Source: Thermoanaerobacter kivui (GTDB taxonomy: Bacteria > Bacillota > Thermoanaerobacteria > Thermoanaerobacterales > Thermoanaerobacteraceae). From it: a DNA stretch of 64,000 nucleotides. Positions 26,961 to 61,165 of the stretch are shown here, piece after piece. How positions within the stretch are numbered: the first letter of the stretch is position 1; every line of letters starts with the position of its first letter. A model generated the notes under the pieces. That model made no database searches. It saw nothing but the letters and a program-made list of their open reading frames with translations, and was not told where the DNA came from. A program made the translations under genes and the position numbers. Location: positions 1,615,501 through 1,679,500 of the forward strand of contig NZ_CP009170.1 in NCBI RefSeq assembly GCF_000763575.1, written 5' to 3'.

Positions 26961-27348
26961 AGCATCTCACCTCTTCATTGGCTGCTTATCCCATCAAACT
27001 ATTTAAAGGAAATCTTTGCACCTCCTGTAATTAGTCTTAAAATGGTTTAAGCAGCACATTAATTTATTAAAATAAAAAATAAAGATTAAAAACTCAAAAA
27101 ATAAGCCCATGCATTAAATAGTCTTAAAATTTCGAATATTTTGTAGACTATTAAAACCTCCTACCGTTTCATTGCTTATTATATCACATATGTAAAAGCC
27201 AAATATAACCCGAAATTCGTTCATATCTCCTAATATTTTGAATTTTTCCTTATATTTATTCAACATATCTCACTTTAGCAAAAAAAATATCCGTTTTTCT
27301 GTGTTTTCTGATACAACTCAAGGCATATAATTATATGAGGTGTTGCTC
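26961..27348. other. Intergenic region between divergent units
   Basis: About 390 bp without a gene, very AT-rich. It should hold the divergent promoters of the zinc-ribbon gene and ytrH. One imperfect hairpin is visible at 27117-27152 (AATAGTCTtAAAAT with ATTTTgtAGACTATT). CATATAAT at 27323-27330 could be part of a sporulation-sigma promoter for ytrH, but the matching upstream box is not convincing. Nothing else was recognised. Confidence 0.5.
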
Positions 27349-27675
27349 ATGATTTTTAAAGTTATAAAGGTATTTTCCATTCCTTTTTTCACATCAATGG
27401 GAGTTGTTATAGGTGGAACGCTTATTGGTGCCTTATCAGCTGTATTTACTTTTGACTCCCCTGTCAAAATAATCAATATGATTTTAAAAGATATACGATT
27501 ATGGGCTATTCTGGTAGGACTTGGCGGTTCTTTTACTGCAATAAGGGGCTTCGAAGTAGGTTTAAGCGGTGAATTCACACAGCTTGCAAAACAAGGTTTA
27601 ATAATTCTTGGCGCTTTTTTAGGCTCTCATGCAGGTTTTATAATCATCTCTTTTATTGTTGGTGATTCAAAATGA
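27349..27675 (+). CDS. ytrH: Sporulation membrane protein YtrH
   Basis: A small membrane protein (about 108 residues) of the YtrH family, with Gly-rich hydrophobic segments (FFTSMGVVIGGTLIGALSAVF; LIILGAFLGSHAGFIIISF). In Bacillus ytrH-ytrI is a mother-cell operon needed for efficient sporulation. The ATG at 27349 follows ATGAGGTG. The next gene overlaps by four bases (ATGA), matching the ytrHI arrangement. It supports the host being an endospore former. Confidence 0.82.
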   Translation: MIFKVIKVFSIPFFTSMGVVIGGTLIGALSAVFTFDSPVKIINMILKDIRLWAILVGLGGSFTAIRGFEVGLSGEFTQLAKQGLIILGAFLGSHAGFIIISFIVGDSK

Positions 27676-28226
27676 AAAAGTATTATATTCATCTTTGCAT
27701 TTTTATTCTTGGTTTTATCATTGGAGGTTCTATCGTAAATGCAGTAAATGGCATTAAAATTGAAAAACTAATTTTCGAAAAAGAAGCTTATAGAATGAAT
27801 AACATTGAATTAAGTGAAAAGGTGTCAAAACTTAATGAATCCCTAAAAAACAAGCCTCAAAGAGTAGTCACAGAGATAATTGTGCACATAAATAATGCTG
27901 ACAATAAATTGGCTATTGAAATAGAAAAATACGTAAAAGAAAAACTATATGGCTTATACGGAAAAGAGGTAGAAAAAATAGACCCCATATTAATAAAAAA
28001 CATTTTTGATGGCAGAGTCTTAACAATTGAAAATAAAAAAATAATCCTAAAGGTTAACTTTATTGTAATAAATACTATTATCGAAATTTACCTTGATATT
28101 CATGAAAAAAAATTCTCTAGAAGAATAAACATAAATTACAGATTGTTAACAAACCTTTTTGTATGTAATTTAAAGTCTCCTGCTTTTATGCTAGGGTGCA
28201 GGCTCACGTATCTAAGTCGTGTCTAA
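27672..28226 (+). CDS. ytrI: YtrI-like sporulation protein with altered C-terminus
   Basis: One N-terminal membrane anchor (YYIHLCIFILGFIIGGSIV) followed by a coiled-coil stretch (IELSEKVSKLNESLKNK) and an alpha/beta domain, the layout of YtrI. The frame overlaps ytrH by four bases. The last roughly 18 codons run into a large inverted repeat beginning at 28172, and the stop codon lies inside that element. The natural C-terminus has probably been replaced by inserted sequence; the protein may still work. Confidence 0.7.
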   Translation: MKKYYIHLCIFILGFIIGGSIVNAVNGIKIEKLIFEKEAYRMNNIELSEKVSKLNESLKNKPQRVVTEIIVHINNADNKLAIEIEKYVKEKLYGLYGKEVEKIDPILIKNIFDGRVLTIENKKIILKVNFIVINTIIEIYLDIHEKKFSRRININYRLLTNLFVCNLKSPAFMLGCRLTYLSRV

Positions 28227-28284
28227 GGCTCATTTTGGGCAGATGAGACACACTACACCTTGCGCATAAAAGCGGAGACTTTTT
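28172..28284. repeat. 113-nt structured element with long closing stem
   Basis: AAAGTCTCC(T)GCTTTTATGC at 28172-28191 pairs with GCATAAAAGCGGAGACTTT at 28264-28282, leaving one bulge, and the plus strand continues with a short T run. The enclosed 72 nt can form further paired arms: AGGGTG with CACCTT, GTGT with ACAC, and CTCAT with ATGAG. The overall shape is that of a branched RNA ending in a terminator, or of a small mobile element. It is not recognised as a known family. It captures the 3' end of ytrI. Confidence 0.65.
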
Positions 28285-28293
28285 AAAAATGAC

Positions 28294-28308
28294 TTTGTCT
28301 ACAGTCTG
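28294..28308 (+). repeat. 15-bp repeat TTTGTCTACAGTCTG, copy 1
   Basis: This 15-mer recurs in inverted orientation at 33872-33886. The two copies flank the patatin-to-PAP2 gene block, and each sits next to another unusual element (the 28172 hairpin; the 33.9-kb remnant). They look like ends of a former insertion element. Confidence 0.6.
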
Positions 28309-28315
28309 ACATAAA

Positions 28316-29188
28316 TTATTCATTTTGTATGTTAATTTCTTTCTTTATTTTCCAAACAATAGAATCGGCAGCTTCAAATCCCATATTTATGCATTTTCCC
28401 GCCTGGTCAAACCTATACCAGCGAATATTATTAACATTAGGTTTTATTGTATAGACTCTTTTACCCCTCTCTGTTTTTTCGGAATTTTTGTTAGAGCTGT
28501 CTTTTAATAACTTCATAGTTGTAGCTGTAATGGACATAATTTCAGGCGCTGTCCTTTTTAAATTGAAATACTTTTTTAGAGGCAGCAACTTATCACTATT
28601 AGCTAAAGAATAAAAGGTTTTTTCAAAAACTCCCATATCTATGCTAGAGCTCACATCACATTCTATAATTATGTCTGCACCCAATTTAGCTGCTAATTCT
28701 ATTGCCTCAGAATCAACAATTGACCCATCAACTAACTTGGTTCCATTGTACTCCACAGGTTCAAAAAAGACAGGGATAGAAATGCTTGCCCTTATAGCTT
28801 TTATCAAGTCTCCCTCTTTAAATACTACTCCCTTTCCTGTTTGAATATCAGTAGCCACAATATATAGAGGAATATTAAGTTCCTCAAAACTTTCTTTCAC
28901 ATAACCCCGCAAATATTTCTCTATTTTTTCACCCTTTACTAAGCCGGTTCGTGAGGCTTTAAAATCCAATAAACTTATAAATTTTAACATATTAATCTTT
29001 TTTGCATCACTTATAAGTTTGTCTACATTATGTCCTGAAGCATAGATTGCTCCTATTATCGCTCCCATACTTATGCCTATTATAAAATCAATAGGAATAT
29101 TTTCTTCTTCAAATCTTTTTAGTATACCTAAGTGGGCATATCCTCTTGCTGCTCCACCGCCCAGTATAAGTCCTACTCTTGGTCTCAT
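28316..29188 (-). CDS. Patatin-like phospholipase, RssA/NTE type
   Basis: A serine lipid hydrolase (290 residues) with a Ser-Asp dyad. It has the oxyanion glycines RVGLILGGGAARGYAHLGI, the nucleophile elbow GISMG and the DGS motif (KLVDGSIVDSEAIEL) with the catalytic Asp. No signal peptide, so it acts inside the cell, likely on phospholipids. It lies 15 bp behind tetR and ends the phasin-aarF-tetR-patatin unit. The substrate is unknown. Confidence 0.88.
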   Translation of the reverse strand: MRPRVGLILGGGAARGYAHLGILKRFEEENIPIDFIIGISMGAIIGAIYASGHNVDKLISDAKKINMLKFISLLDFKASRTGLVKGEKIEKYLRGYVKESFEELNIPLYIVATDIQTGKGVVFKEGDLIKAIRASISIPVFFEPVEYNGTKLVDGSIVDSEAIELAAKLGADIIIECDVSSSIDMGVFEKTFYSLANSDKLLPLKKYFNLKRTAPEIMSITATTMKLLKDSSNKNSEKTERGKRVYTIKPNVNNIRWYRFDQAGKCINMGFEAADSIVWKIKKEINIQNE

Positions 29189-33871: not shown

Positions 33872-33886
33872 CAGACTGTAGACAAA
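33872..33886 (-). repeat. 15-bp repeat TTTGTCTACAGTCTG, copy 2 (inverted)
   Basis: CAGACTGTAGACAAA on the plus strand, the exact reverse complement of 28294-28308. It lies 16 bp before the remnant of the GC-rich element that truncates the sensor fragment. Confidence 0.6.
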
Positions 33887-46164: not shown

Positions 46165-46211
46165 TATACAAAGGTACCTCACCTCCTCTATACACCGTAG
46201 AGCAAGTGATG

Positions 46212-46412
46212 CAAATACAGGCAGGTCTCCTGACTTAGGGTCACCGCTCTTTACGCCTTCCCATCTTTCAAACATTGGGGACGGTTCCTTTTGTCTGAAC
46301 AGACAGTGGCATAATGTAAAGAGCTCACCATCACAGTGGCGGGACCGTGCAGGACTTTCACCTGCTTCCCTTTTAACCCAATTTTGAAGCCAAAATTGGG
46401 CACCTGTATTTG
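46212..46412 (-). ncRNA. Cobalamin (B12) riboswitch
   Basis: On the minus strand the conserved boxes are clear: the closing stem AAATACAGG/CCTGTATTT, GGGAAGCAGGTGAAAGTCC, TGCACGGTCCCGCCACTGT (with the B12-box GCCACTG) and the 3' block AAGTCAGGAGACCTGCCTG. It lies in the nrdD leader, so B12 should repress the anaerobic class III reductase when a B12-dependent class II enzyme can take over. Confidence 0.95.
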
Positions 46413-46558
46413 ATATTATTGAATTTTCTACAAAATGTAGTATACATAATTATATTTACCTCAATATTTAGTATATCATTGCCTTATAACCTTGTCAATA
46501 AAAAATAATTTTTTAACATCCTTTTTTTGTAAACCTACAGAAATATTATAATTAAGAC

Positions 46559-61070: not shown

Positions 61071-61165
61071 GGGAGTAGATAGGTGCTGGTGTGCCTACTA
61101 GACTTCAAATCTAGCTTCTCGCTTAAATAGCGAGAGGTGGGTTCGATTCCCACATACTCCCGCCA
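61071..61165 (+). tRNA. selC: tRNA-Sec (anticodon UCA)
   Basis: A 95-nt selenocysteine tRNA with encoded CCA. It shows the long acceptor stem (GGGAGTAG with a TACTCCC 3' side), anticodon loop CTTCAAA with TCA at 61105-61107 between CTAGA/TCTAG arms, a long variable arm (CTTCTCGCT/AGCGAGAGG) and the T loop GGTTCGATTCC. All arms pair, so it looks functional. It is next to broken selB and selD pieces. Confidence 0.95.

Follow-up and report, generated by a model that had tools for sequence, protein, structure and literature searches.

In the IS1182 family, the staphylococcal elements IS1272 and TnSha1 target stem-loops without a sequence consensus (PMC5678879, PMC4923244), and several of these target stem-loops were confirmed as terminators by RNA-seq (PMC4923244). 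In insertions of these two elements, the target hairpin was removed wholly or partly and no duplication was left (PMC5678879, PMC4923244). Duplication of the whole stem-loop appears in the model of PMC5678879 as “pathway b”, which was drawn as a possibility. PMC5678879 cites a review in which some IS1182 members are stated, with no detailed data, to target palindromes. Bacterial MITEs, as reviewed in PMC10969869, are shorter than 500 bp and intergenic, with terminal inverted repeats, a stable stem-loop and, in younger copies, direct repeats, and the family described here resembles them in these respects. The pneumococcal SPRITEs, named in the same review (PMC10969869), are likewise small dispersed repeats that are associated with rho-independent terminators; SPRITEs are themselves terminator-like, whereas here the hairpin is the target and lies outside the element.

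The locus lies in a window of 64,000 nucleotides, the whole stretch of Thermoanaerobacter kivui DNA that was analysed (NZ_CP009170.1, positions 1,615,501 to 1,679,500). We conclude with high confidence that positions 28139-28308 of this window are a MITE of a hairpin-targeting family, most likely mobilised by an IS1182 transposase, and that the altered end of the adjacent ytrI gene is a separate matter. The features of the element are as follows.

28139-28308, no strand: complete MITE (type A), 170 bp, with terminal inverted repeats and a flanking direct repeat; 15 other elements of the genome match it
28139-28153, plus strand: left terminal inverted repeat CAGATTGTTAACAAA, one mismatch to CAGWYTGTWGACAAA
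28294-28308, minus strand: right terminal inverted repeat CAGACTGTAGACAAA, no mismatch to CAGWYTGTWGACAAA
28129-28138, no strand: left copy of the 10-bp target-site duplication ACATAAATTA, an exact flanking repeat
28309-28318, no strand: right copy of the 10-bp target-site duplication ACATAAATTA, its last three bases being the complement of the stop codon of the patatin gene
28172-28284, no strand: inner branched inverted repeat, from the sequence and RNA folding

The closing stem of the branched inverted repeat at 28172-28284 consisted of 19 pairs with one 1-nt bulge and was accompanied by a T5 run, in agreement with the initial annotation, which had reported a 19-bp closing stem and a terminal T run. 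RNA folding of 28150-28310 gave -51.9 kcal/mol (z -4.36) for the plus strand and -50.6 kcal/mol (z -5.43) for the minus strand; none of 200 shuffles folded as well in either case, and both strands folded about equally well. The 113-nt branched repeat that had been proposed was therefore real and better than its shuffles; it was not the whole unit, being the core of the 170-bp element. The suggestion that it might be a small mobile element was borne out. The element is multicopy, has no transposase gene, is bounded by 15-bp terminal inverted repeats and is flanked by a 10-bp target duplication; the orthologous site in the relative G005 was empty, and that in G007 was without the element. The repeat score of the 10-bp flanks was reached by a fraction of only 0.0005 of 4000 mis-paired flank pairings from 40 elements of the family. 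The element in the window is an ordinary MITE copy, old and defective.

The search for other copies that the initial annotation had proposed was carried out with a 126-nt query from the window and returned 31 matches in the genome, which is one contig of 2,397,824 bases. In the surroundings of these matches, the common sequence extended past the stretch first reported and ended in the terminal inverted repeats CAGWYTGTWGACAAA. Such ends, with at most one mismatch, occurred at 78 sites in the genome, compared with 2 for the reversed control pattern. Forty paired elements with both ends present were obtained; five were IS copies (1566-1568 bp) and the other 35 were short elements. The pairs were picked by hand from the computed end pairings and the window copy was added; pairings that would have given 374, 473 and 944 bp instead were discarded as spurious, and 20 unpaired loci (L107-L113, L115, L117, L119, L120, L123, L127, L128 and L134-L139) as well as a single element end at window position 33872 were left out. 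The short elements comprised 16 of type A, which match the window element (the window copy included, two of the matches spanning 33 and 51 bases only), 18 of a type B subfamily, mostly 258-333 bp, and one 315-bp element (L118) that matched no query. Type A copies reached 312 bp, and the middle was missing from the window copy and several others; the copies differed in length by large internal deletions (45, 102, 138, 162, 184 bp, etc.). The single end, at window 33872-about 33960 (CAGACTGTAGACAAACTTTCG...), was apparently a truncated type B MITE.

The 500-aa transposase, read from one IS copy, scored 496.3 bits with NF033551 IS1182 (cut-off 270), and its gene contained a stop or frameshift in two of the five IS copies. 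In several G000 and G008 copies (e.g. L084 301-1803) the frame had no internal stop; this stop-less frame crossed the right terminal repeat (...FVNKL) and ended within the duplicated target, so that its length differed with the target. A TnSha1 transposase without a stop codon is mentioned in PMC5678879. The terminal repeats were common to the MITEs and all five IS copies. The idea that the MITE interior derives from the IS was considered and rejected: in blastn comparisons at E 1e-4, none of the 35 short elements, the window element among them, matched the IS, and the ends alone are common to both. Since the interiors do not match, it is the common ends and the common choice of target that point to mobilisation in trans. 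The MITEs were most likely mobilised in this way by an IS1182-family transposase with the same terminal repeats, which would also have moved the gene-less copy in the window.

The window copy is situated among the following genes and sites.

27340-27675, plus strand: ytrH, the upstream neighbour (Pfam PF14034 Spore_YtrH)
27672-28226, plus strand: ytrI open reading frame as read here, 184 aa, C-terminus out of frame; weak NCBIfam YtrI match (21.9 bits, cut-off 125)
28105-28112, plus strand: run of 8 A, the frameshift or sequencing-error site; 7 A in the G002 orthologue
28126-28128, plus strand: TAA at which ytrI natively stops, as read in the G002 frame; not in frame in this sequence
28316-29188, minus strand: patatin-like phospholipase gene, convergent with ytrI (Pfam PF01734)

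A native intrinsic (or bidirectional) terminator of ytrI, which would not be a mobile element, would also take the form of a strong hairpin and T5 run immediately after ytrI, where the convergent genes meet. Orthologues of ytrI were found in 3 of the 14 other genomes searched (G002, G005 and G007). The proposed comparison of ytrI C-termini and hairpins in these relatives showed that the hairpin was not kept in all of them: ytrI was without the element in G005 (ending ...PLE*) and in G007 (ending ...PLEE*), with no such terminator after it in either. The patatin-like stretch was kept beyond the site in G005, so this site is truly empty; the downstream sequence differed in G007. The empty G005 site refutes a terminator origin, although terminator action may remain. 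The multiple copies with terminal repeats and target duplication also argue against it, as does a simple terminator scan, which gave no match in the region of the element, and a native terminator is very improbable.

Still less probable is that the MITE insertion itself made the new ytrI C-terminus, as the initial annotation had supposed. The ytrI frame does enter the inverted repeat and stop inside it, at 28224-28226. However, G002 carries the same insertion, its element matching the window copy at 126 of 126 bases, and its ytrI ends normally before the element (...LDIHEKNSLEE*), so the insertion did not alter the YtrI protein, unless the G002 assembly lost one A. One extra A in the window (8 against 7 in G002) makes the frame skip the native TAA and run into the element. 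The altered C-terminus is separate from the insertion and, to judge from these reading frames, a one-base frameshift or a sequencing error. Ten bp separate the native stop codon from the element downstream of it, and the ends of the convergent ytrI and patatin genes were 7 bp apart before the insertion. The MITE landed between these two genes, just past the ytrI stop, and duplicated 10 bp; as a long imperfect inverted repeat it may passively terminate transcription between them. Equally hard to credit is that the copies are dispersed members of a structured non-coding RNA gene or riboswitch family. The initial annotation had allowed for a structured RNA, and the branched shape and low folding energy favour one, but an Rfam covariance-model search gave no relevant match, the reverse strand folds about as well, and the copies differ by the large internal deletions given above.

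Clear flanking direct repeats were found in 27 of the 40 elements, whereas mis-paired flanks gave 0.14 of 40 on average and never more than 1. In 24 of the 40, the repeat was at least 18 bp long (18-30 bp) and its right copy folded as a stem-loop with -1.2 to -16.8 kcal/mol; the other three clear repeats belonged to the window copy (10 bp) and to L083 and L124 (6 bp each), and the 24 do not include L097, L106 and the first element of L102, whose repeats have diverged. Direct repeats of MITEs are usually short, whereas the 18-30 bp repeats of these 24 elements amount to a whole stem-loop. Hairpins with 7 or more net pairs adjoined both junctions in 20 of the 40 elements, compared with 0.2% of 4000 window positions, and flanks that had been shuffled gave a mean of 0.21 and a maximum of 2 of 40. 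A T run stood beside the hairpin, on either strand, in 22 of the 24 and also at 1224 of 4000 random window positions; because T runs are this common, the term “terminator-like” refers mainly to the hairpin. When 14 family targets were folded, the 5' and 3' overhangs outside the stem were 0-4 nt and differed by at most 1, which is expected if the cuts fall at the two feet of the hairpin. As read from the sequences, most members of the family have a duplication of the whole hairpin, with one copy on each side of the insert.

Thirteen of the 40 elements showed no clear duplication by the repeat score. These included three elements whose long repeats had diverged (matching at 16 of 21-22 bases), some elements that kept both hairpins with indels in the loop (e.g. 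L114), and L098 and the 315-bp element L118 (1014205-1014519), which were flanked by two different hairpins, suggesting rearrangement by recombination between copies. The IS copy L086 had a hairpin on one side only, and the right side of the IS copy L083, with its 6-bp repeat, was without a hairpin. For the window copy, the junction hairpin scores were 1 and 5 and the 10-bp repeat does not fold. Its rebuilt target contained a weak 6-pair inverted repeat (GAATAA, 7 nt, TTATTC; -0.9 kcal/mol), which is there because both genes end in GAA-TAA. A whole-hairpin target was considered for this copy; the weak repeat is all that the rebuilt target offered, and the duplication is short and atypical. At L102 (G000 2380834-2381306), two elements of different subfamilies were adjacent, with one hairpin copy between them that was common to both and three hairpin copies in total.

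For three insertions (L099, L132 and L084), sites with a single hairpin and without the element were found in relatives. The comparison covered 8 of 9, 9 of 11 and 6 of 11 loci besides the query's own; L208 was uninformative, and L200 and L207 differed in the region. The L099 site had a single hairpin without the element in G001, G004, G008 and G009, and the L084 site in G001, G005, G007 and G008. At the L132 site, again without the element, G005 and G007 had the same hairpin and G001, G002, G006, G008 and G009 a diverged one. In some relatives an element abutted the same hairpin (G005 and G007 at the L099 site, G004 and G009 at the L084 site). Exact hairpin repeats of 20-32 bp were present in all 8 copies examined in G008, which were the long ones among 11 transposase matches. 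In T. wiegelii (G009), each of the 4 long copies among 7 matches was flanked by exact hairpin copies, some 2.25 kb from each other; these four were retrieved under two sets of names (L160-L163 and L188-L191) and counted once. In a wider survey, ends were sought in 9 of 20 loci (L160-L163, L169-L172 and L175), the other 11 being mostly partial matches or at contig ends; L170 gave no pair, and L175 failed automatic pairing and was read by eye. An exact 23-bp hairpin repeat was found in a Bacilli MAG (transposase 51% identical) and in an Erysipelotrichaceae MAG (transposase 50% identical), a diverged one (20 of 28 bases) in a Clostridia MAG, and an 18-bp hairpin on both sides in a Paenibacillus, the last by a by-eye reading that was then folded.

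This IS1182 branch and its MITEs probably cut terminator-like hairpins at both feet and duplicate them wholly, so that a terminator is rebuilt on each side, and the family would then have two outcomes, deletion in IS1272 or duplication here. The transposase would mostly insert at the two feet of such a hairpin, making the target duplication a full hairpin, and it may cut an extruded cruciform. The duplicated hairpins could retain terminator activity; the host gene would keep its stop signal and the element would be insulated against read-through.

The family resembles IS1272 and TnSha1 in its transposase family and its stem-loop targets, and the “non-IR” targets also found for those elements (PMC5678879) recall the window copy; it differs in that the hairpin is deleted in those elements and the complete hairpin is duplicated here. 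Deletion of the hairpin without duplication was not the pattern found, since hairpins were duplicated in most members and the window copy had its 10-bp duplication. Stem-loops on both sides, as in pathway b, were present by repeat and fold in the 24 elements described above, the window copy having the 10-bp repeat only. A literature search of titles and the starts of abstracts did not find whole-hairpin duplication; most subscription journals were out of reach, and ISfinder entries or reviews may record such repeats. The window feature by itself matters little, being an old MITE beside a frameshift or sequencing error in ytrI. The MITE/IS family, in contrast, is a variant of IS1182 transposition worth pursuing. 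Its natural insertions are numerous, and for the three that were compared the relatives include sites without the element; together they show a DDE transposase that picks a DNA shape, the terminator-like hairpin, and duplicates all of it, and they are direct material for asking why IS1272 deletes hairpins and these relatives duplicate them. They also suggest a “harmless landing” strategy that would spare host transcription units.

Several other observations were made in the same genomes. A type-A-like element of 134-135 bp had the same flanks in five relatives (L033, L034, L035, L036 and L038, in G001, G007, G008, G009 and G002) and is an old shared insertion. Each of the four long T. wiegelii IS1182 copies (L160-L163) carried a 0.66-kb insert exactly within a terminal repeat, after CAG(AC/TT)TGT, at the left end in two copies and at the right end in the other two. 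The insert of L160, the copy that was scanned (1258-1915, NC_015958.1), had no open reading frame of at least 70 aa on its strand and matched the group II intron families RF02001, RF01998 and RF00029; the IS1182 ends in T. wiegelii seem to be a homing site of a group II intron. Elsewhere in the window, a cobalamin riboswitch was located at 46203-46422 on the minus strand and a selenocysteine tRNA at 61071-61161 on the plus strand.
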